The notes under the pieces are model-generated. The model was not told the DNA's origin. It made no database searches and saw only the letters and a program-made list of their open reading frames with translations. A DNA stretch of 64,000 nucleotides from Erythrobacter sp. GTDB taxonomy: Bacteria > Pseudomonadota > Alphaproteobacteria > Sphingomonadales > Sphingomonadaceae. The stretch spans positions 930,001 to 994,000 of the forward strand of contig JAILWQ010000001.1 in NCBI GenBank assembly GCA_025698865.1. Reading direction: 5' to 3'. Positions 19,577 through 34,655 of the stretch are shown one piece after another; position 1 is the stretch's first letter, and each line of letters begins with the position of its first letter. A program made the position numbers and the translations under genes.

Positions 19577-21242
19577 CGGCCGTCTCCTTCTTCGCTTCGA
19601 GGGCGGGCTTGAAGGGATCGTGGCCGACCCGCGCCAGCGTCGTCAGGAATTGCTCCTCCGGTCCTTCGCGCAGTTCGAGATAGGTGTCGACGATCGCCTC
19701 GATCGCGCCGGGCACTGCGTCTGCGTCGATCCCCGGACCGAGCCGTTCGCCCAGCGTGGTCGCATTGCCGGGATCGCCGCCCAGTGTGATCTGATAATTC
19801 TCGCGCCCCATCCGCTCGAGCCCGAGAATGCCGATATTGCCGACATGATGATGCCCACAGGCATTGATGCAGCCGGAAATCTTGATGCTGAGCTTGCCAA
19901 TCTCGGCCTGGCGCGCGGGATCGGCGAAGACGCGCTGGATGTCCTCGGCAATGGGGATCGAACGCGCCGTGGCCAGCGCGCAGTAATCCATGCCGGGGCA
20001 GGCGATGATGTCGGTGATGAGCGCGGCGTTGGGTTCGGCGAGGCCAGCCTCCAGCAGACGCTCGTGAATCGCCGGCACATCGTCCAGCCGGACATGGGGC
20101 AGCACCACGTTCTGCATGTGGGTGATCCGCATCTCGCCGTGCGAATACTGTTCCGCCAGATCGGCCAGCACGCGCATCTGTTCGGCGGTCGCATCGCCCG
20201 GGGGCTTGCCGATCGGCTTGACCGAGAGGACCAGCGCGGTGTGGCCGCGGACCTTGTGCGGCACCAGATTGTGCCGTGCGAACAGTTCGAGCGCGGGATC
20301 GGCTTCGCGAGCCTTGGCGAGCAAGTCGGACGGCTCGGCGCGCTCGTCCAGCGGGGGCGGCGCAAAATACTGCGCGATGCGGGCGAGCTCTGCCTCGGCC
20401 ACGGCGATCCCGTCGCGTTCAAGCTGGCGGTATTCCTCTTCCACCTGCGCGGTGAATTCGGCCGCGCCCAGTTCGTGGACGAGGATCTTGATCCGCGCCT
20501 TGTACTTGTTGTCGCGGCGCCCGTGGCGATTGTAGACGCGCAGGATCGCCTGGAGATAGTCGAGCAGTTCGACGCGCGGCAGAAAATCCCGCACGGTCTT
20601 GCCGACCATCGGCGTGCGACCCAGTCCGCCGCCCACGAGGATGCGGTAGCCGACCTCGCCCGCCTCGTTTCGAACGATGCGGATGCCGATATCGTGGACG
20701 GAGACCGCCGCGCGGTCCTCCTCGGCGCCGGTGACCGCGATCTTGAACTTGCGCGGCAGGTATTCGAATTCGGGATGCAGGGTCGACCATTGCCGGATCA
20801 GTTCGGCGGTCGGACGCGGGTCCTCGATCTCGTCGGCGGCGACGCCCGCGAAATGGTCGGCGGTCACGTTGCGGATGCAATTGCCCGAGGTCTGGATGGC
20901 GTGCATCCCGACATCGGCGAGCAGGCCGAGAATGTCCGGCACGTCGACCAGCTTCAGCCAGTTGTACTGGAGGTTCTGACGCGTGGTGAAATGGCCGTAT
21001 CCCCGGTCGTAACGCTCGGCGATCAGGGCGAGCTGGCGCATCTGCGCGGAATTGAGCGTGCCGTAGGGCACGGCCACGCGCAGCATGTAGGCATGGAGCT
21101 GGAGGTAGAGCCCGTTCATCAGCCGCAGCGGCTTGAACTCGTCTTCGGTGAGCGATCCGTCCAGCCGGCGCTCGACCTGGCCGCGGAACTGCTCGACACG
21201 CTCGCGCACGATCTGCTCGTCGAATTCGTCATAGCGATACAT
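19563..21242 (-). CDS. cysI: Assimilatory sulfite reductase hemoprotein (CysI/NirA family)
   Basis: Six-electron reduction of sulfite to sulfide at a coupled siroheme and [4Fe-4S] centre, in the cytoplasm. It is 559 residues. The two ferredoxin-like/heme halves are visible: N-terminal HFTTRQNLQYNWLKL and GNCIRNVTADHFAGV, and a C-terminal cluster signature CPGMDYCALATARS followed by KISGCINACGHHHVGNIGILG, which supplies the four cysteines. No cysJ flavoprotein gene is present nearby, so the electron donor may be ferredoxin or a distant reductase. ATG 21242 overlaps the stop of the upstream DUF2849 gene by one base. Confidence 0.95.
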   Translation of the reverse strand: MYRYDEFDEQIVRERVEQFRGQVERRLDGSLTEDEFKPLRLMNGLYLQLHAYMLRVAVPYGTLNSAQMRQLALIAERYDRGYGHFTTRQNLQYNWLKLVDVPDILGLLADVGMHAIQTSGNCIRNVTADHFAGVAADEIEDPRPTAELIRQWSTLHPEFEYLPRKFKIAVTGAEEDRAAVSVHDIGIRIVRNEAGEVGYRILVGGGLGRTPMVGKTVRDFLPRVELLDYLQAILRVYNRHGRRDNKYKARIKILVHELGAAEFTAQVEEEYRQLERDGIAVAEAELARIAQYFAPPPLDERAEPSDLLAKAREADPALELFARHNLVPHKVRGHTALVLSVKPIGKPPGDATAEQMRVLADLAEQYSHGEMRITHMQNVVLPHVRLDDVPAIHERLLEAGLAEPNAALITDIIACPGMDYCALATARSIPIAEDIQRVFADPARQAEIGKLSIKISGCINACGHHHVGNIGILGLERMGRENYQITLGGDPGNATTLGERLGPGIDADAVPGAIEAIVDTYLELREGPEEQFLTTLARVGHDPFKPALEAKKETADASA

Positions 21243-21553
21243 CAGGCGGTCTCTCCGAAGTCGATCGTGGGACCGGAGGCGCGGATCGCCTCGCGGTAAT
21301 GGGCGGGAGCGGGCCGCCCGTCCTCGCCCTTCGCCGCCGTCACCAGATAGGCGTCGACGACCACGCCCGCGCTGTCACCGGCAATGGTTTCGAGGCGGCG
21401 CGCGGTCGCCTCGTCCTCGGCCAAGGCGGCGCCGGACAGATCGCCGGTCCAGTCGCTCCCGTCGAAATAGACGACGTCGCCGTCGCGCAGACGATTGCCG
21501 GTCAGGACGAGCGGCAGCTTGGGCAATTTGGAAGATTTTTCCATCCCGCGCAT
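21242..21553 (-). CDS. DUF2849 domain-containing protein, first gene of the cys operon
   Basis: A 103-residue protein with the DUF2849 pattern: LTGNRLRDGDVVYFDGSDWTGDL near the start and VVDAYLVTA toward the C-terminus. The family is commonly found immediately ahead of cysI in alphaproteobacteria and has no proven function. It heads seven genes joined by overlaps of 1 to 14 bases, which strongly suggests one transcript. The start could be Met1 at 21553 or Met4 at 21544. No transmembrane segment is visible. Confidence 0.87.
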   Translation of the reverse strand: MRGMEKSSKLPKLPLVLTGNRLRDGDVVYFDGSDWTGDLSGAALAEDEATARRLETIAGDSAGVVVDAYLVTAAKGEDGRPAPAHYREAIRASGPTIDFGETA

Positions 21554-21659
21554 ATAGCTCTCTTGCCCCCGCCGCCCAATCCCTCCTTGGCAAAAGCATG
21601 GCGAATGCTAAGACCGGCGCTGAATTAGCAAATTCTTCCAATCGTCGGCGCACGCACGC
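21554..21659. promoter_or_regulatory. Divergent promoter and palindrome between cys operon and Lrp-type regulator
   Basis: The 106-base gap between divergent transcripts holds an interrupted palindrome GCTAA (21607-21611) and TTAGC (21625-21629), and an overlapping one, GAATT (21622-21626) and AATTC (21631-21635). Lrp/AsnC proteins typically bind such AT-rich imperfect palindromes, so the adjacent regulator is a good candidate to bind here and control both genes. Confidence 0.5.
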
Positions 21660-22109
21660 ATGGATGCCATCGATCTCGCCATATTGCGTCTTTTGCAGGA
21701 GGACGCCTCGCTGCCGGTCACGGAAATCGCGGCCCGCATCAACCTGTCGCAGACCCCGACCTGGCGGCGCATCCAGAAGCTCGAACAGGCCGGCGTGATC
21801 GCGCGCCGCGTGGCGCTGCTCGATCCTGCCGGGGTAGGGCGAGACATCACCGTGTTCGTCGACGTCGAGACGGGCGATCATTCCTCGCAATGGCTGGCCG
21901 ATTTCGCGCGCACGGTCTCCGACATGCCGCAGGTGATGGAGGTCTATCGCATGGCGGGCGAGATCGATTACACGCTTCGGATCTCGGTCGGATCGATGGC
22001 CGAATTCGATGCCTTCTATCGCGCCCTGATCGAGGCGCTGCCTCTGAAGAACGTCACCTCGCGCTTCGCCATGGAACGGATCAAATACACGACCGCCCTT
22101 GCGATCTGA
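21660..22109 (+). CDS. Lrp/AsnC family transcriptional regulator
   Basis: A 149-residue feast/famine regulator. The N-terminal helix-turn-helix is MDAIDLAILRLLQEDASLPVTEIA then INLSQTPTWRRIQKLEQAGVI. The C-terminal RAM (ligand-binding) domain has VFVDVETGDHS, MPQVMEVYRMAGEIDYTLRI and a conserved tail. It is divergent from the sulfate-reduction operon, with a shared 106-base intergenic region containing palindromes, so it probably autoregulates and controls the cys genes. A sulfur amino acid ligand is an inference. No clear Shine-Dalgarno sequence precedes the ATG. Confidence 0.92.
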   Translation: MDAIDLAILRLLQEDASLPVTEIAARINLSQTPTWRRIQKLEQAGVIARRVALLDPAGVGRDITVFVDVETGDHSSQWLADFARTVSDMPQVMEVYRMAGEIDYTLRISVGSMAEFDAFYRALIEALPLKNVTSRFAMERIKYTTALAI

Positions 22110-22143
22110 CATTCCGACATGGCGTCCGGACGCGAGAGAGGAT

Positions 22144-22162
22144 GGTTAGCCCATAATTAACC
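22144..22162. promoter_or_regulatory. Interrupted palindrome upstream of hybrid kinase gene
   Basis: GGTTA (22144-22148) and TAACC (22158-22162) flank an AT-rich core that includes CATAAT, a plausible -10 element. It lies 21 bases before the kinase ATG. An operator or promoter role is possible; no matching -35 is evident. Confidence 0.3.
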
Positions 22163-22183
22163 GCGATCGGGTAGCCCGGCCCG

Positions 22184-25100
22184 ATGCAGGTGGAATCCGG
22201 ATCGCAAATCATCGCCGGGGCGGGCGCCCCCCTTCCGCAGCGCGGGTGGAGCCTCGCCTGCTCCGTCCTTCTGGCCGTGCTCTACGGGGTCATGGCCTAT
22301 CTGATGATCCGGCTGACTTTCGATACGGGCCGCCTGGCCGCCTTCTGGGCCGGCAACGCCTTCGTAATCGGATTGCTGGTGCAGCGGCCACCATCCCAGC
22401 AGGTTGCCGGCGTCCTTTTGTGCGCGCTCGCCAATGTCACCGTGAACCTCATCGTGGGAGACGCCCCGGGCCAGGCCGCCGGCCTCGCCTTCGCCAATCT
22501 GGTCGAGAACACGCTCGCGATTGTCGCGGTCCAACGCCTGCTCGCCCGCGACCTGAATTTCGAAGGGCTGCGGCCCTTCTGGATCATCGCTCTCATCGCT
22601 CTCGCCGCGCCGCTGATCTCGGGCGTGATCGCGAGCGCCAGCCTGGCGCCCTACAGCGAAGCCGCGGTTCTGGCGCATTACGGACGCTGGCTGGCCTCGC
22701 ACTGCCTGCCGATCGCGATCTTCGCGCCGATGGTGCTGATCGCCCGCGATCCCGCCGCCCGGCCCCAACGCTACGACCGAGCGTTCCTGCGTCGTTCGGG
22801 CGCGGTGCTCGCGGCTGTGGCGATCGGGTTGCCGGTCACCTTCTTGCAAACGACCTATCCGCTGCTGTTTCTCGCCGCCCCGATCGTGATCTTCGCCGCC
22901 TTCCGGACCGGACGGCTGGGCACGGCCATCGTGGTCGCCATCCTCGCGGTCTTCGCCTTCCTTGCGACCATGGCCGGTTACGGTCCGATTACGCTGGTGA
23001 GGGGCGGCTCGCGCGAGGAAGCGATCGCGCTCCAGGCCTTTCTCGCCACCTGCATGGCGATCGGGCTGCCGGTGGCCACGGTCCTGTCCAGCCGCAACGA
23101 AATCCGCGACGAATTGCAGGAGAGCCGGGACTTCGTCACCGCCATCATCGACGGCCTCGACGACATGGTTTTCAAGGTCAACGCACAGTGGCGCTGGCTG
23201 TTCGTCAACAGCCAGTGGAAGGCCTATACCGGCCTCCCGGTGGAAACCGCCCATGGTGCGTCCGCCTTCGCTCGCGTGATCGAAAAGGATCACCGCAAGC
23301 TTCGGGACTGGAAATCGCGGATCGAGGCGGGGGAGGATGCCGGCCGGCTGACGGTGCGGATTCTCGCGGAGATTGGCGGATTGCGCCATGTCTCGGTCGG
23401 CATCGATCCGCATTGGGACGAGGCGGGCGGCTTTGCCGGCGGCGTCGGCACGTTCCGCGACGTCACCCAGAGCATCCAGCAGTCCCATGCCCTTGCCGAG
23501 AGCGAGAAGCGCTTCCGCCGCCTTGCCGAAGCCTCGCCGGTCGGGATTTTTCGGTCCGACCGTCACGGCCAGATCACCTATGTCAACGAACGGTGGATGG
23601 CGCTGGCGGGGCTGGAGGACGACGAATGGCGCGGGGGCAAGTGGATTTCCGCCCTTCACCCCGACGATATCGCCCGGGTGCGCGATTCCTGGACCTCCAC
23701 GCGCGCCGCGCAGGAGGGCGCGGACGACGAATTCCGCTGGGTCCGCAAGGACGGGTCCGTGGTCTGGGCCGAAGTCATGTTCAGGCCTGAATTCGATCCC
23801 GAGGGGCGGCGCTCCGGCTATGTCGGGATCGTCAGCGAGATGACGGCCCGCAAGAAGGCCGAGCTGGAACTCGCCCGCCGCGAGAAGCAGCTCAAGCTGC
23901 TCGCCGACAACGCGACAGATGCCGTGGTCCGCCTCGCGCTCAACGGGGTCTGCAAATACGCCTCCCCCTCCTCGCGCGAGATCTTGGGGATCGATCCCGA
24001 GCGACTGGTGGGCGAACAGCTCATCACCGGCTTTCTCGAGGAAGACCGGCAGAAGGTCGCGGATGCGTTCGCCCGTCTTGCCAGCGGACAGGACGAGCGC
24101 GTCCGGCTCGCTTTCCGCTCCTACAGTCTCGTCGAGCGTGGCAGATTCAACTGGCTCGAGGCGAATTGCGGCCTCGTCCGCGACCCGGCGACGGGCGAAC
24201 CGGAGGAGATCATCGCCTCCCTGCGCAGCATCAACGAGACCAAGCGGCTCGAGGCGGAGCTGCTCGCGGCAAAGGAAGCTGCCGAGCGCGCGGTTGACGC
24301 GAAATCCGCGTTCCTGGCCAATATGAGCCACGAGATCCGCACACCGATGAACGGCGTGATCGGCTTCACCGAGCTGGCGCTGGCGGGCGAGCTCGATCCC
24401 GAACAGCGCCAGAACCTGGAAATGATCTCGGAATCGGGGCGCTCGATGTTGCGGCTGCTCAACGACCTGCTCGATCTCGCCAAGATCGATGCAGGGCTGA
24501 TGACGGTCGCCTCGGAGCCGACCGACCTCAGGCACAAGCTGCGCGGCGCGCTGCGTCTGATGGAGCCGGTCGCCTCGCAGAAGGGGCTGGGCTTCACGCT
24601 CGATGTGGCGGACGACCTGCCGCAATGGGTGCTGTGCGACGCGATGCGTGTGCGCCAGATCGTCCTCAACCTGATCGGCAACGCGCTCAAATTCACCGAG
24701 GAGGGATCGGTGACGATCACCGCGGCGCGCGGCTCCGGCGAGACCATGGCGATCTCGGTCGCCGACACCGGGATCGGTATCCCGCCAGACCGCATCGCGC
24801 ATGTGTTCGAAAAGTTCACCCAAGCCGACGAGAGCACCGCGCGCCGCTATGGCGGAACCGGTCTCGGCCTGCCGATCAGCGGCGAGCTTGCCGCGCTGAT
24901 GGGCGGCAGGCTCGAGGTCGAGAGCACGCCCGGTCTCGGATCGACATTCACGCTCACCCTGCCCTGCCTGCCGTGCGAGGCGCCCAACGCCGAGGCCGCC
25001 GATCAGGACGGGGATGCCGAACCCCTGCGCGCAGGCGCCCGCATCCTCGTGGCCGAGGACAATCCCGTGAACCTGCGCCTGACGATGGCGATGGTCGCCC

Positions 25101-25759
25101 GGGCGGGCTGCGTGGCCGAGCCGGCGACCGACGGGGCGGTGGCGATCGCGATGATCGAACGCTCGATCACCGAGGACACGCCCTACGATCTCGTGCTGAT
25201 GGACATGCAGATGCCCAATCTCGACGGGCTCGAGGCGACGCGCCGCATCCGCGCGGCCGGTCACGCCGCCGGCGATCTCCCGATCGTCGCACTGACCGCC
25301 AATGCCTATGCCGACGACATCGCCGAATGCCGCGCGGCAGGGATGCAGGACCATCTCGCCAAGCCGCTGCGGATGCGCGATCTCGAATCCGCCCTGCGCC
25401 GCTGGATTGCCGGCAGCGCCGCCGCTCCCGCAGGGGACGACGCAATGCCGGACGACACCGGACCGGACGAAGCGGACGATCTGGTGGGCGATGCGGGACC
25501 GGACCTCTCGGCCATGTTTGCCGAACGCAAGCGGCTGGCGCTCGACGCCATCGATGCCGCCCTGCGCGATGGCCGGCTCGAAGGCGAGACGCTGGCGGAA
25601 ATCGCCGGCCTCCTCCACCAGATCGCCGGTGTGGCCGCTTATTTCGGAGAAGCCGAGTTAGGCGATGCGTCGAGCGATGCTGAATACCGGCTCGGCGAAG
25701 CGAGCGCGGAGACGGCGGCCGAACTGCTCGCCGGCATTCGCCCTCGCCTCGCCGCCTGA
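22184..25759 (+). CDS. Hybrid sensor histidine kinase with MASE1, PAS, REC and Hpt-like domains
   Basis: A 1191-residue complex phosphorelay protein. The N-terminal MASE1-like membrane sensor has about eight hydrophobic segments (residues about 20-300, with FWAGNAFVIGLLVQ). It is followed by three PAS/PAC modules (about 315-700; WLFVNSQWKAYTG, ITYVNERWMALAG, CKYASPSSREILG). The HisKA H-box is FLANMSHEIRTPMNG with His716, then the ATPase boxes LNLIGNALKFTEEG and DTGIGIPPDRI. The receiver domain has ILVAEDNPVNLRL and phospho-acceptor Asp1007 (VLMDMQMP). The C-terminal helical segment with LLHQIAGVAAYFG has His1145, consistent with an Hpt domain. No response regulator gene is adjacent, so the output partner is unknown. 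The ligand sensed is unknown. Confidence 0.92.
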   Translation: MQVESGSQIIAGAGAPLPQRGWSLACSVLLAVLYGVMAYLMIRLTFDTGRLAAFWAGNAFVIGLLVQRPPSQQVAGVLLCALANVTVNLIVGDAPGQAAGLAFANLVENTLAIVAVQRLLARDLNFEGLRPFWIIALIALAAPLISGVIASASLAPYSEAAVLAHYGRWLASHCLPIAIFAPMVLIARDPAARPQRYDRAFLRRSGAVLAAVAIGLPVTFLQTTYPLLFLAAPIVIFAAFRTGRLGTAIVVAILAVFAFLATMAGYGPITLVRGGSREEAIALQAFLATCMAIGLPVATVLSSRNEIRDELQESRDFVTAIIDGLDDMVFKVNAQWRWLFVNSQWKAYTGLPVETAHGASAFARVIEKDHRKLRDWKSRIEAGEDAGRLTVRILAEIGGLRHVSVGIDPHWDEAGGFAGGVGTFRDVTQSIQQSHALAESEKRFRRLAEASPVGIFRSDRHGQITYVNERWMALAGLEDDEWRGGKWISALHPDDIARVRDSWTSTRAAQEGADDEFRWVRKDGSVVWAEVMFRPEFDPEGRRSGYVGIVSEMTARKKAELELARREKQLKLLADNATDAVVRLALNGVCKYASPSSREILGIDPERLVGEQLITGFLEEDRQKVADAFARLASGQDERVRLAFRSYSLVERGRFNWLEANCGLVRDPATGEPEEIIASLRSINETKRLEAELLAAKEAAERAVDAKSAFLANMSHEIRTPMNGVIGFTELALAGELDPEQRQNLEMISESGRSMLRLLNDLLDLAKIDAGLMTVASEPTDLRHKLRGALRLMEPVASQKGLGFTLDVADDLPQWVLCDAMRVRQIVLNLIGNALKFTEEGSVTITAARGSGETMAISVADTGIGIPPDRIAHVFEKFTQADESTARRYGGTGLGLPISGELAALMGGRLEVESTPGLGSTFTLTLPCLPCEAPNAEAADQDGDAEPLRAGARILVAEDNPVNLRLTMAMVARAGCVAEPATDGAVAIAMIERSITEDTPYDLVLMDMQMPNLDGLEATRRIRAAGHAAGDLPIVALTANAYADDIAECRAAGMQDHLAKPLRMRDLESALRRWIAGSAAAPAGDDAMPDDTGPDEADDLVGDAGPDLSAMFAERKRLALDAIDAALRDGRLEGETLAEIAGLLHQIAGVAAYFGEAELGDASSDAEYRLGEASAETAAELLAGIRPRLAA

Positions 25760-25810
25760 ACGGATGCCAAAGCGGATGCCTGCGGATCGGCGGGAGCGTT
25801 CCGGCGTGGC

Positions 25811-27196
25811 TCAGGCGCGGATCGCAGCCGGCTGATACTCGGCGTAATCGCCGATCAGGTCGGACAGACAGCGTTCGGCCACCGGCTCGCTCAGCAGGAA
25901 GCCCTGGATGAACTGGCATCCCTCTCGGCGCAGGATCTCGCGCTGTTCGGGCAGTTCCACGCCTTCGGCAAGCGTGACCATGCCCAGCGCTTCCGCCAGA
26001 GTGGTGATCGCCCGGATCACGGCGTGGGCGTTGCCCTCTTCTGTCAGGTCGCGCACGAAACTGCGGTCGATCTTGACCTTGTCGAAGGGAAAGCTGCGCA
26101 GATAGCTGAGCGAGGAATAGCCCGTGCCGAAATCGTCGAGGGCGATCTTCACGCCGAGATCGCGCAGGCCGTGAAGCGCGCCCAGCGTCTTCTCGACATT
26201 GGTGATAAAAACGCTTTCCGTGATCTCGAGCTCGAGCCGGCTTGGCGAGAGGCCCGAGCGACCGAGCGCCTGAAGGACCGTGGAGGATAGGCCGGACGAG
26301 ACGAACTGCCTCGGCGAGATGTTGACCGCGACGGTGAGGTCGTCCGGCCACCGGGTCGCGGCACGGCAGGCCTCGTGAAGGACCCATTCGCCGATCGGCA
26401 CGATCAGCCCGGTCTCTTCGGCCAGTGGAATGAACTCCGCGGGACCGATCATGCCGCGCCTGGGATGCGGCCAGCGGATCAGCGCCTCGAAACCTTCGAG
26501 GCGATCGTCGCGGAGATTGTAGAGCGGCTGGAAATAGAGCTCGAACCCGCCATCGCGGATCGCGGTGCGCAGATCGAGTTCCATCTCGCGCCGCATCCGC
26601 GCCTGTTCGTCCAGCGCGGGTTCGAAGAAATGATGGCCGGCCTTGCCGTCGTGCTTCGAGCGATAGAGCGCGAGATCGGCGTTTTTCATCAGCGTGACCC
26701 CGTCCTCGCCGTCGCCGGGCGCAATAGCGATCCCGATGCTGGCCGAGGCTTCGATCGTCTGTCCATCGATGACGATCGCCCGCCCGAAACAGGCCTGCAT
26801 TTCGTCGGCGAGGGCGGCGAGATTGGCCTCCGGTTCGATCCCGTCGATCAGAATTGCGAATTCGTCGCCGCCGAGCCGCGCGATCTGCGCATCCGGCAGG
26901 CGCTCGCCCAGGTGCTCGGCGGTCTGGCGCAGCAGCGAATCGCCCGCCGGATGGCCGAGCGTGTCGTTGACCAGCTTGAAATCGTCGAGATCGACATAGG
27001 CGACGAGCAGCTGCTCGCCGTCCTTCCGGCGCGCCAGCGCGCGAGACAGCTGTTCGACGAAGAGCTTGCGGTTGGGCAGACCGGTCAGCCCGTCATGCAG
27101 GCCGACATGGACGATCTGCCGCTCGCGCTCCTCGATCGCGCCGACCATCGCTTGGAAATTCGCGGACAGCCGGCCGACCTCGTCCGTGGTTTTCAC
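25811..27196 (-). CDS. GGDEF-EAL cyclic-di-GMP enzyme, lacking its N-terminal sensor (5' truncated)
   Basis: Bifunctional diguanylate cyclase/phosphodiesterase-type protein. From GTG at 27196, 461 residues are visible: the end of a HAMP domain (KTTDEVGRLSANFQAM), a GGDEF domain with intact RLGGDEFAI (c-di-GMP synthesis), and an EAL domain with FEALIRW, DDFGTGYSSL and KIDRSF (c-di-GMP hydrolysis). Reading upstream in the same frame to 27316 gives a membrane helix and HAMP start (AVIALGFRVAGSITGPLSRL), after which the frame ends at an in-frame stop and the DNA becomes a different gene. The periplasmic sensor, first membrane helix and promoter are therefore missing. It may be a pseudogene, or be expressed as a soluble remnant from 27196. 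Confidence 0.8.
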   Translation of the reverse strand: MKTTDEVGRLSANFQAMVGAIEERERQIVHVGLHDGLTGLPNRKLFVEQLSRALARRKDGEQLLVAYVDLDDFKLVNDTLGHPAGDSLLRQTAEHLGERLPDAQIARLGGDEFAILIDGIEPEANLAALADEMQACFGRAIVIDGQTIEASASIGIAIAPGDGEDGVTLMKNADLALYRSKHDGKAGHHFFEPALDEQARMRREMELDLRTAIRDGGFELYFQPLYNLRDDRLEGFEALIRWPHPRRGMIGPAEFIPLAEETGLIVPIGEWVLHEACRAATRWPDDLTVAVNISPRQFVSSGLSSTVLQALGRSGLSPSRLELEITESVFITNVEKTLGALHGLRDLGVKIALDDFGTGYSSLSYLRSFPFDKVKIDRSFVRDLTEEGNAHAVIRAITTLAEALGMVTLAEGVELPEQREILRREGCQFIQGFLLSEPVAERCLSDLIGDYAEYQPAAIRA

Positions 27197-27296
27197 TTCG
27201 AGCGAGACCGCCTCGCCCCGGGCGAAAGCGCGAACGGCGGCGTCGAGGCGGCTGAGCGGCCCGGTGATCGATCCCGCTACCCGGAAGCCGAGCGCG

Positions 27297-27316
27297 ATGA
27301 CCGCTGCTTCCGCAGA
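27297..27316. other. Apparent junction joining two 5'-truncated divergent genes
   Basis: Left of this point the minus strand encodes the HAMP/membrane part of a GGDEF-EAL protein; right of it the plus strand encodes the middle of a DUF3034 protein. Neither coding sequence continues across: the DUF3034 frame meets TGA at 27298-27300 and the GGDEF-EAL frame meets a stop at 27317-27319. Both genes thus lose their 5' halves here. A deletion in the genome or a false join in the assembly would each explain it. Confidence 0.7.
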
Positions 27317-27759
27317 TCAGCCTCGGCATCCAGCACAAGCGCAGCCGCAACGATGCCGTCGTCACCGCGCTCGGCGCCGCGGAGGTGGAAGGCACGGACT
27401 TCTACGTTTCCGCGACCAAGCTGGTCCTTTCGCACAGTCTGCTTGCCAGCGGCACGCTGCGCCTGACCAAGGCCAACCAGAACGGCCTGCTCGGTTTCGG
27501 CAGCGCCGCCCAGCCCGATTACGGGCTCCAGTTCGAAGGCTCGCTCGCCTACCAGCTCTCCCGCCGCTTCGCCGTGGGCGCGGAATACCGCAGCAAGCCC
27601 GACAATCTCGGCCTCGGCGAGGATGACTGGATGGATGTGTTCGCGGCCTATGCGCCGACGGATTTTCTCACGCTCACCGCCGCCTATGCCGATCTCGGCT
27701 CGATCGCGACCTTCGGGGACCAGCGCGGGGCCTTCCTCCAGGCTCAGCTCGCATTCTAG
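27301..27759 (+). pseudogene. DUF3034 family outer-membrane-like protein, N-terminal half missing
   Basis: The readable frame (153 codons) begins LLPQISLGIQHKR and continues TDFYVSATKLVLSHSLL, LRLTKANQNGLLGF, FAVGAEYRSKPDNLG and AYADLGSIA, ending in F. This is the C-terminal half of DUF3034 proteins, which are normally about 280 residues, start with a signal peptide and look like beta-strand-rich outer-membrane proteins. The signal peptide and first half are absent, and an in-frame stop lies immediately upstream (27298-27300). A GTG at 27385 could start a 124-residue fragment, but it would not be exported. The stop is 11 bases before the hemoglobin gene, as expected for a once-intact operon. 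Confidence 0.75.
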
Positions 27760-27770
27760 GATATCTGCCG

Positions 27771-28301
27771 ATGCTTCTTCTCGCCGCGCCCGCAATCCTG
27801 TTGCTTCAGCAGACGCCTCCCGAAACCGTCGACTGGGATGCCGAATTCGGGGTCGAGGCGGAGGAGCCCGACCCTTTGACGGGGGAGCTTCCGGTTGAAC
27901 CGTACGAGCACAGCAACGCCAATGCCGGGGCCGCGCCTTTTGCCGGGGAACGCATGGCCCAGCTGTTCAACGGGCAGGCGGGCATTCGCCGCATCGCCGA
28001 CCGCCTGGTCGATCTAAACCAGGCCGATCCGCGCATCGCGGCGATCTTCGCCGGCCACGACATGGTTCGCCTGCGCCGCACCCTGTTCGAGCAGTTTTGC
28101 TTCATTCTCAACGCCGGTTGCGACTACACCGGCCGCGACATGCGCTCGTCCCACCAAGGGCTCGGCTCTCGCAAGGGCGACATGAACGCGCTGGTCGAGA
28201 ACCTTCAGATGGCCATGCACGAGGAGGGTGTGCCCTTTGCCGCGCAGAACCGGTTTCTCGCCAGGCTCGCCCCGATGTCGGGCGACGTGATCGAAAGATA
28301 G
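27771..28301 (+). CDS. Exported group 1 truncated hemoglobin-like protein
   Basis: A 176-residue protein with an N-terminal hydrophobic signal-like segment (LLLAAPAILLLQQTPP), an acidic linker, and a C-terminal globin domain: RIADRLVDLNQADPRIAAIFAGHD, LFEQFCFILNAGCDYTGRDM, then SSHQGLGSRKGDMNALVENL, where the His of HQGL is at the expected proximal (F8) heme ligand position, and GVPFAAQNRFLARLAPM. Group 1 truncated hemoglobins bind O2 or NO; an exported one is atypical. It follows the truncated DUF3034 gene by 11 bases. Whether it still has a promoter is uncertain because the upstream gene's 5' part is lost. Confidence 0.8.
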   Translation: MLLLAAPAILLLQQTPPETVDWDAEFGVEAEEPDPLTGELPVEPYEHSNANAGAAPFAGERMAQLFNGQAGIRRIADRLVDLNQADPRIAAIFAGHDMVRLRRTLFEQFCFILNAGCDYTGRDMRSSHQGLGSRKGDMNALVENLQMAMHEEGVPFAAQNRFLARLAPMSGDVIER

Positions 28302-28367
28302 GGCTTTACAGCCATCGCCCCAGCCACCACCCCCGCCCCTCTGGATTGGCTGGAAGGACCGGGCGCC

Positions 28368-29255
28368 ATGAGCGGCGATGAATGGGTGATCGGGATCGTC
28401 GGCGGGTCGGGCCTCTACGCCATCGACGCGCTCGAGGATGCGCAGTGGATCGCGGTCACATCACCCTGGGGCGAGCCGTCGGACGAGATCCTGTGCGGCC
28501 GCATCGGTCAGGTGCAGGTCCGCTTCCTCCCCCGCCACGGACGCGGACACCGCATCCTTCCCGGCAAGCTGAACGCGCGCGCCAATATCGATGCCCTGAA
28601 GCGCGCGGGGGCGACCGACATTCTCGCAATCAGCACCGTCGGCTCGCTCAACGAGGAACTTCCGCCGGGCCGCTTCGTCGCGGTCGACCAGTTCATCGAC
28701 CAGACGAAAGGGCGCGCCTCCTCCTTCTTCGACACCGGCTTCGTCGCGCATGTCTCGATGGGCGATCCCGTCTGTCCGCGCCTGTCGCGCTTCGCGGTCG
28801 AGGCGGTGCGGGCAGCGGGCGGCGAGGCGAGCGAGGGGGCGACCTATCTCGCCATGGAAGGTCCGCAATTCTCCACCCGCGCCGAAAGCAGGCTTTACCG
28901 CAGTTGGGGCGCCGACGTGATCGGCATGACCGGAATGCCCGAGGCGAAGCTCGCCCGCGAGGCCGAGCTGCCCTACGCCCTGCTCGCCGTGGTCACCGAC
29001 TGGGACAGCTGGCGCGACAGCGAGGCCGCCGTCGATGTCGGCGAGATCATCGCGCAGATGGACACCAACGGGGCTCTTGCACGCAGGGCGGTGGAAGCGT
29101 TCTGCGAGGCGCTGCCCGCCAACCGCACCCCCTCTCCGATCGACATCGCGCTCGACGATGCGGTCATCACCAACCCCGGCATGTTCGACCGCGAACTGGT
29201 CGCCCGGCTCGATCGGGTCGCGGGCCGTCTCTTCGCCCGGAACGGCAAGGGCTGA
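28368..29255 (+). CDS. mtnP: S-methyl-5'-thioadenosine phosphorylase
   Basis: Cleaves 5'-methylthioadenosine with phosphate to adenine and 5-methylthioribose-1-phosphate, recycling the by-product of polyamine synthesis. It is 295 residues. Family signatures visible: IGIVGGSGLYAI (phosphate loop) near the start, LPRHGRGHRILPGKLNARAN, GPQFSTRAESRLYRSWGADVIGMT (base and ribose binding) and a PNP-like tail. Closest alternative is a purine nucleoside phosphorylase, but RHGRGH and MEGPQFSTRAES favour MTAP. It is the first of three genes on the same strand; its stop is 1 base before the glpD start. Confidence 0.94.
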   Translation: MSGDEWVIGIVGGSGLYAIDALEDAQWIAVTSPWGEPSDEILCGRIGQVQVRFLPRHGRGHRILPGKLNARANIDALKRAGATDILAISTVGSLNEELPPGRFVAVDQFIDQTKGRASSFFDTGFVAHVSMGDPVCPRLSRFAVEAVRAAGGEASEGATYLAMEGPQFSTRAESRLYRSWGADVIGMTGMPEAKLAREAELPYALLAVVTDWDSWRDSEAAVDVGEIIAQMDTNGALARRAVEAFCEALPANRTPSPIDIALDDAVITNPGMFDRELVARLDRVAGRLFARNGKG

Positions 29256-29256
29256 G

Positions 29257-30726
29257 ATGATCGACCTGCTGGTCGTCGGTGGAGGGATCAACGGCGCGGG
29301 AATCGCACGCGATGCCGCGGGCCGGGGATTGCAGGTGACCCTGTGCGAGAAGGACGATCTCGCCTCTCACACCTCGTCCGCCAGCACCAAGCTGATCCAC
29401 GGCGGACTGCGCTATCTCGAGCAGTTCGAGTTCCGGCTGGTGCGCGAATCGCTGCGCGAGCGCGAGGTCCTGCTGGCCGCCGCACCGCATATCATCTGGC
29501 CGCTGCGCTTCGTGCTGCCGGTCGACGAGGGGATGCGCCCGGCCTGGATGCTGCGGCTCGGGCTGGCGCTCTACGACCAGCTCGGCGGCCGCTCGTCCCT
29601 GCCCGGCACACGGCCGGTCGACCTGCGCCAGCCGCCTCACCGCACCGTCCTCGACGACCGGCTGAAGCGGGGCTTCGAATATTCGGACTGCTGGGTAGAG
29701 GATGCCCGCCTGGTTGCCCTCGCCGCCGTAGACGCGCGCGAGCGGGGCGCAAACGTCCTGACACGCACCGAATGCATCGGACTGGAACGGCGCGGCGATC
29801 GCTGGCGCGCGCGGCTGAGGAATGCGGAGGGCGAATGGATCGTTGAGGCCCGCGCTCTCGCCAACGCGGCCGGTCCGTGGGTGGACCGTCTGGCGAAGAT
29901 GGCGCTCGGCAGCGGCACACCCGCACGCCTGCGCCTTGTCAAGGGCAGCCACATCATCGTTCCGCGCCAATATCCGGGCGACCACGCCTATATCTTCCAG
30001 CAGGGTGACGGGCGGATCGTCTTCGCCATTCCCTACGAGCGGGATTTCACTCTGATCGGGACGACCGACACTCCGTTCGACGGCGATCCCGGCAGCGTGG
30101 CGATCTCCGACGAGGAACGCGCCTATCTGCGCGAGGCGGCCGGGCGCTATTTCCGCAAACCCATTACAGCGGACCAGATCGTCCACAGCTACAGCGGTGT
30201 CCGCCCGCTCTACGAGGACAATTCGGCGCGCAACTCCACGGTTACGCGCGATTATGCCTTCGAGCTCGATGCCGATGGTGGCGCGCCGATCCTGTCGGTC
30301 TATGGCGGGAAGCTGACGACCTTCCGCAAGCTGGCGGAACATGCCCTCGCCCGGCTCTCGGCGCATCTGCCCATGGGCGGCGAATGGACTCGCGAGGCGC
30401 CGCTTCCCGGCGGCGAGATGGACGATTTCGCGCAATTCCTTGGTCAGGCGGCAAGCTGCTATCCTTGGCTACCCGACACGATGCTCGTTCGGCTCGCCCG
30501 CGCCTACGGCACGAGGATCGGGGCGCTGCTGGGCGATGCCGGATCGCTTGAAGATCTGGGCGAATGTTTCGGCGGCGATCTCTACGAGGCCGAGCTGCGC
30601 TATCTGATGCGCGAGGAATTCGCCCGCGATTCCGAAGATGTCCTCTGGCGCCGCAGCAAGCTCGGCCTGCATCTCCCGGCTGCGAGCCGGGAGCGGGTGC
30701 GCGCGTGGATGAGCGACAAAGGTTGA
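29257..30726 (+). CDS. glpD: Aerobic glycerol-3-phosphate dehydrogenase
   Basis: Membrane-associated flavoenzyme that oxidises glycerol-3-phosphate to dihydroxyacetone phosphate and feeds electrons to quinone. It is 489 residues. The FAD dinucleotide fold is LLVVGGGINGAGIARDAAGRG at the start, then SASTKLIHGGLRYLEQFEF, RLVKGSHII, IGTTDTPFDGD, YSGVRPLYED and YGGKLTTFRKLAEHAL, all strong GlpD marks. ATG 29257 follows the mtnP stop by 1 base, so the two are probably coupled. No glycerol kinase or facilitator is adjacent. Confidence 0.96.
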   Translation: MIDLLVVGGGINGAGIARDAAGRGLQVTLCEKDDLASHTSSASTKLIHGGLRYLEQFEFRLVRESLREREVLLAAAPHIIWPLRFVLPVDEGMRPAWMLRLGLALYDQLGGRSSLPGTRPVDLRQPPHRTVLDDRLKRGFEYSDCWVEDARLVALAAVDARERGANVLTRTECIGLERRGDRWRARLRNAEGEWIVEARALANAAGPWVDRLAKMALGSGTPARLRLVKGSHIIVPRQYPGDHAYIFQQGDGRIVFAIPYERDFTLIGTTDTPFDGDPGSVAISDEERAYLREAAGRYFRKPITADQIVHSYSGVRPLYEDNSARNSTVTRDYAFELDADGGAPILSVYGGKLTTFRKLAEHALARLSAHLPMGGEWTREAPLPGGEMDDFAQFLGQAASCYPWLPDTMLVRLARAYGTRIGALLGDAGSLEDLGECFGGDLYEAELRYLMREEFARDSEDVLWRRSKLGLHLPAASRERVRAWMSDKG

Positions 30727-30758
30727 ACGCCGCCGGTTGCCGGTCCAAGGCGCGCGCC

Positions 30759-33700
30759 ATGGCCACCGCTGTTTCCGATTCCCGCCCCGCACCCGCGATC
30801 CTCGATCGCCGCGCCGTCCGCCTTGCCTATCGCGAGGAAGAGGAAAAATGCGTGGCCGAACGCCTCTCGCAGGCGCGCCTCGCCTCGCGCGCGCATGACG
30901 AGGCCTCCGCACTGGCCGTGCGCCTGATCGAGGGCGCGCGGCGGCGCAAGGCGAGCGGGCTCGACGCCTTCCTCCAGCAATTCGGCCTCGCGACCGAAGA
31001 GGGCATCGCGCTGATGTGCCTCGCCGAAGCCCTGCTGCGCGTGCCCGACAGCCACACCGCCGACGCGCTGATCCGCGACAAGCTGGCCGATATCGACTGG
31101 TCGGAGCATCTGGGCGAAAGCTCCTCCACCTTCGTCAACGCGGCGACCTTCTCGCTTATGCTGACGGGCGAGGTGCTGGAACGCCCCGGCCCCAATCGCC
31201 GTCCGCTGGAAAAGACGCTCCGCGGCACCATCAACCGGCTCGGCGAACCGGTGGTCCGCAAGGCGACGCTGCAGGCGATGAAGATCCTTGGCGGCCAGTT
31301 CGTGTTCGGGCGCAATATCGAGGAAGCGCTCAAGCGCGCATCGCCCGAACGGGCGCGCGGCCTGACGCACAGCTTCGACATGCTCGGCGAAGCGGCGATG
31401 ACCTTCGAGGACGCCGAACGCTATCGCAAGGCCTATGGCAGCGCGATCGAGCGGCTGTCGCGCGAGGCGCGCGGCGGGGTCGGGGATTCGCCCGGCATTT
31501 CGGTGAAGCTGTCGGCGCTGCACCCCAAATACACCTTCCTCCACCAGCGCGAGGCCGTGGCGGCGCTCGTCCCGATCGTGCGCGAGCTGGCCATCAAGGC
31601 GCGCGATGCCGACATCCACTTCACCATCGATGCGGAAGAGGCCGATCGGCTCGAACCCTCGATGGACATTCTCGAGGAGCTGGTCGCCGATGACGAGCTG
31701 TTCGCCAACGGCACCGCACAGGGCTGGACCGGCTTCGGTCTCGCCATCCAGGCCTATCAGAAGCGCTCGGCCCCGCTGTGCGACTGGGTCGCCAAACTCG
31801 CCCGGCGGCATGGCCGCAAGCTCTTCGTCCGGCTGGTGAAGGGTGCCTACTGGGACACGGAGATCAAGCTCAGCCAGGTTGGCGGCTACACCGATTTCCC
31901 GGTTTTCACCCGCAAGGTCGCGACAGACGTGTCCTATCTTGCCTGCGCGGCGAAGCTGATCGAGGCGGGCGACGCGATCTATCCGGCTTTCGCCACGCAC
32001 AATGCGTACACGGTCGGCGCGATCAAGACGCTCGCGGCGCGCAACAACACGGCGTTCGAGTTTCAGCGTCTGCACGGCATGGGCGAGGACATTTACGACG
32101 CGCTCGCGCAGGTCGAGGGCAATTCCCGCACCCCCGTCCGCATCTATGCGCCGGTCGGAACGCACAAGGACCTGCTCGCCTATCTGGTGCGCCGACTGCT
32201 GGAAAACGGCGCGAATTCGAGCTTCGTCAACCGCATGGCCGATGCCGACATTCCGGCCTCGGACCTCGCGACCGATCCGGTGGAAGAACTCGCCGCGCTT
32301 CGTCCCAAGCGCAATCCCGACATTCCGCTTCCCGGCGACATCTTCCCCAACCGCTCGAATTCGGCTGGGGTCGACCTGTCCGATCCGCTCGTGCGCGAAC
32401 CACTGGAAAAGCGGCTGGAGGAACTGCGCGGTCGCCACTGGAACGCCGCGCCCACCCTGTCCTACGGCAATCCCGGTGAAATGGCGCCGATCACGCAGCC
32501 GCAGGACCTCTCGCACGAAGTCGGCACGCGCCGTGACGCGAACGAGGACGAGGTCCGGATCGCCATCGGCCGGGCGCAGGCGATCCAGCCGGGCTGGAAC
32601 GCGCTGGGCGGCGAGAAACGCGCCCTGCTGCTGGAAGCGGCGGCGGATGCGTTTGAGGCGAACACCGCCGAGATCCTTTCGCTCTGCCAGCGCGAGGCGG
32701 GCAAGACGTTGCCCGACGCGGTACTCGAACTGCGCGAGGCGGTCGATTTCCTGCGCTTCTACGCGAACGAGGCGCGCAGGCTCTTCACCGGCGCCTTCGC
32801 CCTTCCCGGCCCGACCGGCGAGGAGAACCGGCTGACCTTCAACGGGCGCGGCGTGTTCGCCACGATCAGCCCGTGGAACTTCCCGCTGGCGATCTTCATC
32901 GGCCCCGCCGCCGCTGCCTTGGCCGCGGGCAACACGGTCGTCGCCAAGCCCGCCGAACAGACGCCGCTGATCGCTGCGCTCGCCGTCCGTCTTTGCCATG
33001 AGGCCGGCATTCCCGAAGAGGTGTTCCAGCTTCTTCCCGGCGCGGGCGAGGTCGGCCAGTTCATCACCTCCGACCCGCGCCTCGCCGGAGTTGCCTTCAC
33101 CGGATCGACCGGAACCGCGCAGGCGATCAATCGCACGCTCGCCGCGCGTGATGGGGCCATCGCGACCTTCATCGCCGAGACGGGCGGCCAGAACGCGATG
33201 ATCGTCGACAGTTCGGCCCTGCCCGAACAGGTCACCCGCGATGTCGTCGCCAGCGCTTTCCAGAGCGCGGGCCAACGCTGCTCCGCCCTGCGGATGCTCT
33301 ATGTCCAGGACGATGTGGCCGACGAGATGCTGCGGATGATCCGCGGCGCCTTCGAAGCGCTGCATGTCGGCGATCCCGAAGACCTCGCCACTGATGTCGG
33401 CCCGGTGATCGATCCCGACGCCAAGGCCGCGCTCGAGCGACACGTGGCCCGGCGCGAGAAGAACGGCCGTTCCGTGTGGCGGCGCGAACTGCCGCACTCC
33501 ACCATCAAGGGCTGCTTCGTCGCGCCGACGATCATCGAAATGGATTCCATCCTCGATTTGAAGCGCGAGAATTTCGGACCGGTTCTGCATGTCGCCCGCT
33601 TCCCCGGGCACCAGCTCGAACAGGTGATGGAGGACATCAATTCGGTCGGCTACGGCCTCACCCTCGGGCTGCACAGCCGGATCAATTCCACCCGACGCCT

Positions 33701-33911
33701 GGTCGAGAGCATGGCCCGGGTCGGCAATTTCTACGTCAACCGCAACCAGATCGGCGCGGTGGTCGAAAGCCAGCCCTTCGGCGGAGAAGGCCTGTCCGGC
33801 ACCGGCCCCAAGGCGGGCGGCCCGAACTACGTGATGCGGTTCGCGACCGAGCGCGTGGTCTGCATCGACACGACGGCGGCCGGGGGGAATGCGAGCCTGC
33901 TGGCGAGCTAA
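30759..33911 (+). CDS. putA: Bifunctional proline dehydrogenase / glutamate-semialdehyde dehydrogenase (PutA)
   Basis: Converts proline to glutamate in two steps: FAD-dependent proline oxidation, then NAD-dependent oxidation of glutamate-semialdehyde with channelling of the intermediate. It is 1050 residues. The PRODH barrel shows VKLSALHPKY (near 248), FTIDAEEADRLEPSMD and RLVKGAYWDTEIK; the ALDH part shows ISPWNFPLAIFIG, VAFTGSTGTAQAI, AETGGQNAMIVD and catalytic Cys841 in GQRCSALR. No N-terminal ribbon-helix-helix DNA-binding domain is seen, so unlike E. coli PutA it should not repress its own operon. ATG 30759 lies 32 bases after glpD. The 3' end overlaps the convergent tetR-like gene by 4 bases. 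Confidence 0.95.
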   Translation: MATAVSDSRPAPAILDRRAVRLAYREEEEKCVAERLSQARLASRAHDEASALAVRLIEGARRRKASGLDAFLQQFGLATEEGIALMCLAEALLRVPDSHTADALIRDKLADIDWSEHLGESSSTFVNAATFSLMLTGEVLERPGPNRRPLEKTLRGTINRLGEPVVRKATLQAMKILGGQFVFGRNIEEALKRASPERARGLTHSFDMLGEAAMTFEDAERYRKAYGSAIERLSREARGGVGDSPGISVKLSALHPKYTFLHQREAVAALVPIVRELAIKARDADIHFTIDAEEADRLEPSMDILEELVADDELFANGTAQGWTGFGLAIQAYQKRSAPLCDWVAKLARRHGRKLFVRLVKGAYWDTEIKLSQVGGYTDFPVFTRKVATDVSYLACAAKLIEAGDAIYPAFATHNAYTVGAIKTLAARNNTAFEFQRLHGMGEDIYDALAQVEGNSRTPVRIYAPVGTHKDLLAYLVRRLLENGANSSFVNRMADADIPASDLATDPVEELAALRPKRNPDIPLPGDIFPNRSNSAGVDLSDPLVREPLEKRLEELRGRHWNAAPTLSYGNPGEMAPITQPQDLSHEVGTRRDANEDEVRIAIGRAQAIQPGWNALGGEKRALLLEAAADAFEANTAEILSLCQREAGKTLPDAVLELREAVDFLRFYANEARRLFTGAFALPGPTGEENRLTFNGRGVFATISPWNFPLAIFIGPAAAALAAGNTVVAKPAEQTPLIAALAVRLCHEAGIPEEVFQLLPGAGEVGQFITSDPRLAGVAFTGSTGTAQAINRTLAARDGAIATFIAETGGQNAMIVDSSALPEQVTRDVVASAFQSAGQRCSALRMLYVQDDVADEMLRMIRGAFEALHVGDPEDLATDVGPVIDPDAKAALERHVARREKNGRSVWRRELPHSTIKGCFVAPTIIEMDSILDLKRENFGPVLHVARFPGHQLEQVMEDINSVGYGLTLGLHSRINSTRRLVESMARVGNFYVNRNQIGAVVESQPFGGEGLSGTGPKAGGPNYVMRFATERVVCIDTTAAGGNASLLAS

Positions 33912-34507
33912 CGCGCGGCGATCCCCTCGCGCAGAAGCGCTTCGGCGGCCGCGGCGATCTCCTCGATCGTGCGCGAAGTATCCCACACGCCGAAGCGCAG
34001 GCCGAGAAACACGTTCATGCCCATGATGGCCCAGGCGCGGATCTCATTGTCGCCCGGCGTGACGACTCCTGCTGCCACGCTCTCGTCGAGCCTTGCCGCG
34101 ATGCGCTCCGCCGCGCCGGTGTAATGCTGGCGGTAGCTCGCCGGATCGGCGAATTCCGCCTCGTCGATGATGCGGTAGATTTCCTTGTGGTCGCGGGCGA
34201 AGGCGAGGAAGGCCGCCAGCGCCTCGCCCTCGCGCACCGTCCCGTTGCTGTCGTGCGACATTCCGGCGGTGGCAGCGCGGGCGACATGCTGGCTCATGTC
34301 TCCGACAAGCGCGGAATAGATCGCCTCCTTGCTGTCGAAATAGGTGTAGAAGGTGCCGAGCGCCGTGCCGGCCTGGCGGGTGATGCCGCTGATCGAAGCC
34401 TCGTGAAAGCCGCGCTCGCCGAACTCCCTGGCCGCCGCGTCGAGCAGCTTGCGCAAGGTCTCGCGCCCCCGTTCGGTGCGCGGTTCCTTGCCCGGACTTG
34501 CCGACAT
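33908..34507 (-). CDS. TetR/AcrR family transcriptional regulator
   Basis: A 199-residue one-component repressor. The N-terminal helix-turn-helix is ETLRKLLDAAAREFGERGFHEASISGI then AGTALGTFYTYFDSKEAIYSAL, the standard TetR DNA-binding region. The C-terminal ligand domain has IYRIIDEAEFADPASYRQHY, a pattern shared by many TetR proteins linked to lipid or hydrophobic ligand control; the ligand is unknown. ATG 34507 is backed by a good site (AGGGGAGA), so the longer upstream frame is rejected. It is divergent from a TonB-dependent receptor, the most likely target. Confidence 0.92.
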   Translation of the reverse strand: MSASPGKEPRTERGRETLRKLLDAAAREFGERGFHEASISGITRQAGTALGTFYTYFDSKEAIYSALVGDMSQHVARAATAGMSHDSNGTVREGEALAAFLAFARDHKEIYRIIDEAEFADPASYRQHYTGAAERIAARLDESVAAGVVTPGDNEIRAWAIMGMNVFLGLRFGVWDTSRTIEEIAAAAEALLREGIAAR

Positions 34508-34655
34508 CGCTCTCTCCCCTGTCCCGTGAAGTGGCCATTCGGACACATTTGGTAGGGACAGAATAACCACCGCGCAATTCTAAAGTTGAAAGGTGGTTCA
34601 TGTTTCAATAAAGCGGTCGGCAAGCGCTCGGATCAGGGCGCAGGAGGAGAGAGCC
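34508..34655. promoter_or_regulatory. Divergent promoter region with inverted repeats (tetR / TonB receptor)
   Basis: The 148-base gap contains an inverted repeat AACCACC (34565-34571) and GGTGGTT (34592-34598) with a 20-base spacer, and a second, TGTCCC (34520-34525) and GGGACA (34555-34560). A TTGAAA (34586-34591) could be a -35 for the receptor gene. These are candidate operators for the TetR protein; the assignment is untested. Confidence 0.4.

Follow-up and report, generated by a model that had tools for sequence, protein, structure and literature searches.

Membrane enzymes of the dCache_3-HAMP-GGDEF-EAL type, copper proteins such as amicyanin, pseudoazurin, copper nitrite reductase and plastocyanin, and the outer-membrane barrels FapF and OmpG offer the nearest comparisons for the proteins of the locus described here, and small chromosomal deletions by illegitimate recombination offer the nearest comparison for the lesion that it carries. 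No description of a function for DUF3034, or of a module of these four genes, was found in the literature covered, a scope outside which most subscription papers fall. Within that scope, DUF3034 is mentioned in a figure legend on retrons, in a text otherwise concerned with DUF3037 (PMC12548924), and in a table, in the row for a membrane protein of Streptomyces (PMC4255298).

The window, meaning the whole stretch of 64,000 nucleotides that was analysed (G000:C1:930001-994000), belongs to a draft assembly of an Erythrobacter sp. (G000) with 38 contigs, 3.16 Mb and an estimated completeness of 99.97%. Comparisons drew on a panel of 60 genomes of the genus, a sample of 298 genomes of the family and a draw of 398 genomes across the phylum. 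Among the genomes seen, G071, regarded here as Qipengyuania spongiae, is the nearest relative and shares 83-88% DNA identity; BLASTN of window positions 20001-36000 against it served as the synteny reference. A protein search with the GGDEF-EAL gene, in which 7997 candidates were scored, returned Q. spongiae (86%) and Qipengyuania sp. MTN3-11 (84%), both of 765 aa, as the best matches after the window's own, and no intact copy from the same species is present among the 120 proteins listed of the 1054 that passed. The protein cluster to which the remnant belongs has two member sequences, all on one contig. Five shorter relatives from the same search (P0069, P0070, P0093, P0095 and P0108) could be additional truncations or pieces cut off at contig ends. 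The features of the locus are collected in Table 1.

Table 1. Features around the junction, in window coordinates
Feature	Position	Strand	Basis
MASE1-PAS-histidine kinase-receiver protein, convergent neighbour	22184..25759	+	Pfam; collinear in G071
GGDEF-EAL remnant (HAMP, GGDEF, EAL)	25811..27300	-	Pfam, translation, tblastn, ORF list
Probable deletion junction	27300..27301	.	BLASTN breakpoints against G071; base-by-base comparison with G071, G052, G023 and G007
DUF3034 remnant	27301..27759	+	PF11231, tblastn, ORF list; strands from the L062 protein model
Globin-like gene (PF01152), fourth of the module, full length	27771..28301	+	Pfam; 83% to G071 over 176/176 residues
Nucleoside-phosphorylase-like gene	28368-29255	+	Named by reading; BLASTN block 27301-35341 with G071, tblastn
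GlpD-like gene, from ATG at 29257 to 30726	29257-30726	+	Named by reading; BLASTN block with G071, tblastn

A conserved four-gene module and its described counterparts

The genes for a cupredoxin, a GGDEF-EAL enzyme, a DUF3034 protein and a globin stay together in Sphingomonadales and Caulobacteraceae, and likewise in further classes of the phylum. Among 80 fetched loci, the best of 376 confirmed matches, 67 have the GGDEF-EAL and DUF3034 genes in divergent orientation and the cupredoxin gene immediately between the two, which bears out the statement in the first-pass annotation that in some proteobacteria such genes sit divergently around another gene. A divergent cupredoxin gene adjoins DUF3034 in 74 of the 80. 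The complete arrangement, with cupredoxin and GGDEF-EAL divergent from DUF3034 and the globin gene behind DUF3034, occurs at 64 loci and likewise at one more near a contig end; two lack only the globin gene, at a contig end, and six have a divergent cupredoxin gene and a GGDEF-EAL gene in some other orientation. The cupredoxin gene is present and no GGDEF-EAL gene is detected at L138, and the cupredoxin gene lies farther off at L091. Cupredoxin and GGDEF-EAL are both missing from five loci, in three for want of upstream sequence and also at L098 and L139. Among eight loci read from the phylum-wide draw, five from other classes (L173-L177) carry all four genes in one direction, with a second GGDEF-EAL-like frame in L173 and L175; L179 has the divergent layout, L172 is the truncated locus of G619 described below, and at L178 long frames that overlap one another match DUF3034, globin and cupredoxin, with nothing matching GGDEF-EAL. 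In G025, from another family, DUF3034 and globin are present, and the 13.5 kb read hold neither a cupredoxin nor a GGDEF-EAL match at 45% or above.

Within the genus panel, 19 of the 60 genomes carry the whole module, three have internal deletions (G000, G001 and G045), and 38 are without a detected module gene, that is, without cupredoxin, globin or a GGDEF-EAL/DUF3034 pair among the matches listed; the DUF3034 protein was searched in 25 of the 60 and in those drawn in the family sample, and lower-scoring GGDEF-EAL matches (e.g., in G062 and G068) were set aside as paralogues by score. The 19 genomes with the cupredoxin are the same 19 that have the full module, including G012, which was counted as whole with its module split over two contigs and the cupredoxin gene cut by a contig end. 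A GGDEF-EAL orthologue covering most of the retained part is found in 21 of the 60, G000 and G001 being the two without the whole module. A weak globin match in G058 was rejected as chance (E 3.4e-4, 29%, four stops), and a stop in the GGDEF-EAL alignment of G009 is not counted as a lesion, falling at residue 23 of a long frame, ahead of where the 765-aa form begins.

The GGDEF-EAL proteins belong with the dCache_3-HAMP-GGDEF-EAL membrane enzymes: the G071 orthologue and two Phenylobacterium loci have all four domains, whereas the window remnant keeps HAMP, GGDEF and EAL and is without the sensor and the anchor. The best NCBIfam equivalog of the intact G071 protein is DibA, at 428 bits against a cut-off of 980, and the protein therefore has no named equivalog.

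DUF3034 (PF11231) is present in 39 of the 398 genomes drawn across the phylum and in 31 of the 298 of the family sample. A structure model of a full-length relative (L062; 39 of 67 extracted proteins aligned) has 12 predicted strands at a mean pLDDT of 77, and Foldseek places FapF first, with OmpG also high. Identity to these barrels is only 10-15% and the TM-score about 0.40-0.53 on the query, and sequence search assigns DUF3034 to no barrel family; the modelled likeness is thus one of predicted fold and not of family membership. Pieces of DUF3034 with a TAG stop also occur in G445 (C3:72638-73313), a genome with a full DUF3034 match on another contig.

The gene between the divergent pair is a predicted cupredoxin, as judged on its relatives by fold and copper-ligand residues. 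These relatives run to about 200 residues and have at the C-terminus a carboxypeptidase-regulatory-like part that scores under the family cut-off; they give weak sequence matches to copper proteins and none to any Pfam cupredoxin model. His94, Cys130, His133 and Met136, which we take to be the type 1 copper ligand set, are invariant in all 37 aligned sequences (37 of 56 proteins extracted). The structure model has a mean pLDDT of 93, and its best PDB matches by Foldseek are amicyanin, pseudoazurin, copper nitrite reductase and plastocyanin; unlike amicyanin, pseudoazurin and plastocyanin, the proteins carry the extra C-terminal part and are hit by no Pfam cupredoxin model. The globin has a hydrophobic N-terminus by reading, and in the window its gene is intact despite the loss of the region upstream of DUF3034.

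The junction and the missing block

The window departs from this arrangement at a single point. In BLASTN against G071, a left block of 7.3 kb (20001-27300, 83%) and a right block of 8.0 kb (27301-35341, 88%) are collinear, and the gap between them is zero in the window and 2,026 bp in G071. The 2,026 bp comprise the first 170 codons of DUF3034, 73 bp between divergent starts, a cupredoxin gene of 207 codons and the 5' portion of GGDEF-EAL, which encodes the membrane anchor and the dCache_3 sensor. In the window, the left flank stops within GGDEF-EAL, close to where the second membrane helix ends, and the right flank opens at DUF3034 codon 171. The first-pass annotation, made from the window alone, had proposed that two head-to-head genes lose their N-termini at one point near 27300 through a deletion of both 5' ends and any gene between or through an assembly mis-join, and had suggested comparison with close relatives; the comparison with G071 agrees with the deletion on each point, with the extra sequence lying exactly at the junction and holding both ends and a divergent cupredoxin gene. 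The TGA stops that it had placed at 27317-27319 in the minus frame and at 27298-27300 in the plus frame are likewise present. Since the alignments to G071 break at 27300|27301 on both sides, both stops sit in foreign sequence beside the join.

The GGDEF-EAL remnant aligns by tblastn to residues 305-802 of the 802 of the G071 protein at 86%, and the DUF3034 remnant to residues 171-322 of 322 at 89%. In the Pfam-searched minus frame (25814-27316), which is open up to 27316, the GGDEF and EAL domains score 127.5 and 251 bits, against 130.7 and 253.3 bits in the intact G071 protein, and dCache_3, present in the G071 orthologue, is missing. The earlier description of this frame as running through HAMP into a membrane helix holds for HAMP, and for the helix only as far as the last few residues of the second one, by reading of the sequence. 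Its estimate that about half of each protein is missing fits DUF3034, which has lost 53% (170/322 residues), and overstates the loss from the GGDEF-EAL protein, about 35% (some 268 residues out of 765 in the intact relative P0002). The window's DUF3034 is a remnant and an incomplete member of PF11231: its last 152 codons and stop are kept, and the plus frame 27301-27756 scores 185.7 bits, above the cut-off, over positions 104-255 of 255 only. The lost part takes in the N-terminal region together with strands 1-4 of the 12 predicted in the full-length relative.

Neither the missing block nor a duplicate of the join is seen elsewhere in the genome. The 2,026-bp block of G071 has no match anywhere in the G000 assembly, the same query detecting it in six of eight genomes tested; the other genome without a match is G001, which bears a deletion of its own. 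By search, the cupredoxin protein is also absent from G000. The 27-mer across the junction is single copy in G000 and, even with up to 3 mismatches allowed, is absent from the remaining 59 genomes of the genus panel. When positions 25800-28300 were searched against G000, none of 12 non-self matches spanned the junction (40 of 238 candidates scored), a search that repeats shorter than about 40 bp would escape. Microhomology at the junction is 0-1 bp relative to G071, G052, G023 and G007, making it near-blunt, which is compatible with non-homologous end joining. A Ku gene is present at G000:C11:162112-162651 (176 bits, cut-off 25; the same search was positive in one of 14 control genomes), so that end joining is possible, as an argument of compatibility only. 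The loss of a single block, the 0-1 bp of microhomology and a Ku gene in the genome are shared with small chromosomal deletions by illegitimate recombination; the mechanism is not unusual among these, and what stands out is that one module has been hit repeatedly.

Lesions in related genomes and the origin of the junction

Comparable lesions are found at the same locus in other genomes. In G001 (L049 6867-8924), GGDEF-EAL residue 215 adjoins globin residue 66, with DUF3034 and the cupredoxin gone, and its relative G054, whose flanks are 90-91% identical, has 2,385 bp at the G001 junction. In G045 (L180 3850-4269), GGDEF-EAL residues 675-780 lie head to head with globin residues 141-176, only the 3' ends of these two genes being kept, a near-complete loss of the module. 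Flank alignments overlap by about 7-10 bp in G001 and G045, not all of them exact. An uncultured Erythrobacter (L098 5923-6459) has DUF3034 from about residue 145 beside the globin gene, and G619, from another class (L172 8155-8733), has DUF3034 profile positions 127-296 of 296, again beside globin; neither cupredoxin nor GGDEF-EAL was detected near these two truncated genes, which may reflect simple deletions or larger rearrangements. As the breakpoints in G000, G001, G045, L098 and G619 differ, they represent separate events. The DUF3034 breakpoints in G000, L098 and G619 fall, very roughly and in mixed numberings, within 26 of 298 residues, an observation made post hoc for which no clustering is claimed.

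A recent chromosomal deletion of about 2.0 kb very probably made the junction in the window. The ancestor would have had an intact divergent module, with the DUF3034 barrel and the globin on one side and the cupredoxin and the membrane GGDEF-EAL enzyme on the other. A single deletion would have removed the cupredoxin gene and both 5' ends between the divergent transcription units, and the ends would have been joined almost bluntly, possibly through Ku-dependent end joining. This would have left two gene remnants without starts of their own, an intact globin gene and a c-di-GMP unit deprived of its sensory input; the remnants would presumably have lost expression and function, and the deletion would exist in the cell and not in the assembly alone.

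The rival accounts of the join fare less well. That the 2 kb are present in the cell and were dropped or mis-joined in a 38-contig draft, with the remnant known from one contig of the one assembly found for its species, is a small chance, given that no repeat spans the junction among the matches scored, that the junction 27-mer is single-copy, that the missing block lies on no other contig at so high an estimated completeness, and that other genomes are comparably scarred at this locus. Mobile elements can leave deletions behind, and a transposase-like frame near the G001 locus (L049 5688-6650) was noted by reading; even so, insertion of such an element and its imprecise loss are a very improbable source of the join, as the junction shows nothing of an element's sequence and the G071 segment consists of module genes only. 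Still less credible is the view that both are true short genes with natural starts at this point. Each frame does have a GTG past the join, at 27196 and at 27385, yet both frames break at the same base, and the full-length proteins starting at this point that the first-pass annotation had named as contrary evidence were not encountered: 19 of the 21 GGDEF-EAL orthologues seen in the genus are full length, and 30 of the 31 DUF3034 proteins in the family sample align with that of G071 from no later than residue 79 through to 321-322, with only that of G000 starting at 170.

Fate of the remnants and significance

The deletion, if it arose as proposed, appears to be recent. Relative to G071, dN/dS is 0.130 for the GGDEF-EAL remnant (bootstrap 0.091-0.169) and 0.116 for the DUF3034 remnant (0.057-0.213), compared with 0.136-0.192 for four intact neighbours, and neither remnant has acquired a stop or frameshift. 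Such values imply either that the loss is recent or that the GGDEF-EAL part is still in use. When changes in GGDEF-EAL were polarised, 25 amino-acid and 21 synonymous changes fell on the G000 branch and 12 and 37 on the G071 branch (Fisher p = 0.0034); three other outgroup sets gave p = 0.058, 0.026 and 0.10, and the same test gave p = 0.67 for DUF3034 and p = 0.57-0.76 for three intact neighbours. These counts are suggestive of relaxed selection on the GGDEF-EAL remnant, in a manner that depends on the outgroup. No promoter-like or terminator-like sites were found at 26900-28400 for the restricted promoter types scanned; since shuffled sequence would also be expected to give no hits in the promoter scan, this result says little about promoters. 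On balance, the remnants are likely to be non-functional and are probably decaying.

An adaptive reading, which competes with decay alone, would hold that the truncation was selected for a sensorless, soluble GGDEF-EAL enzyme, translated for example from the GTG at 27196. This codon is the first ATG, GTG or TTG of the frame and would give an open product of 461 aa (the corresponding GTG of the DUF3034 remnant, at 27385, would give 124 aa); the near-intact GGDEF and EAL scores and the low dN/dS of the remnant accord with continued use, as does G001, which also retains the catalytic part and in which that part evolves slowly, with 7 amino-acid and 34 synonymous derived changes against 4 and 40 in G054. 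The start in question, however, falls inside the HAMP segment, the excess of amino-acid changes on the G000 branch points, if anything and not robustly, to relaxation, and G045 keeps only the last part of GGDEF-EAL, with none detected at L098 or L172. Selection for such an enzyme is accordingly considered unlikely, and decay after the deletion is preferred.

The lesion is an instance of ordinary gene loss, but a precise one, recent when set against the divergence from G071, and accompanied by an intact close relative. Together with the lesions in G001 and G045, and with those in L098 and G619, it points to a conserved four-gene c-di-GMP unit that is apparently undescribed. On a tentative reading, to which we give somewhat less than even weight, the cupredoxin, the dCache_3-GGDEF-EAL enzyme, the DUF3034 outer-membrane barrel and the exported globin would form one envelope system of this phylum, which would detect outside the inner membrane a signal of redox or metal type (copper, nitric oxide or oxygen) and set c-di-GMP accordingly; conditionally costly, it would be dismantled repeatedly by internal deletions, of which the window would be a fresh example. 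That the four proteins work together is what we infer from their association. The scarred genomes, standing beside intact relatives, would serve as natural knock-outs for finding the function of the unit.
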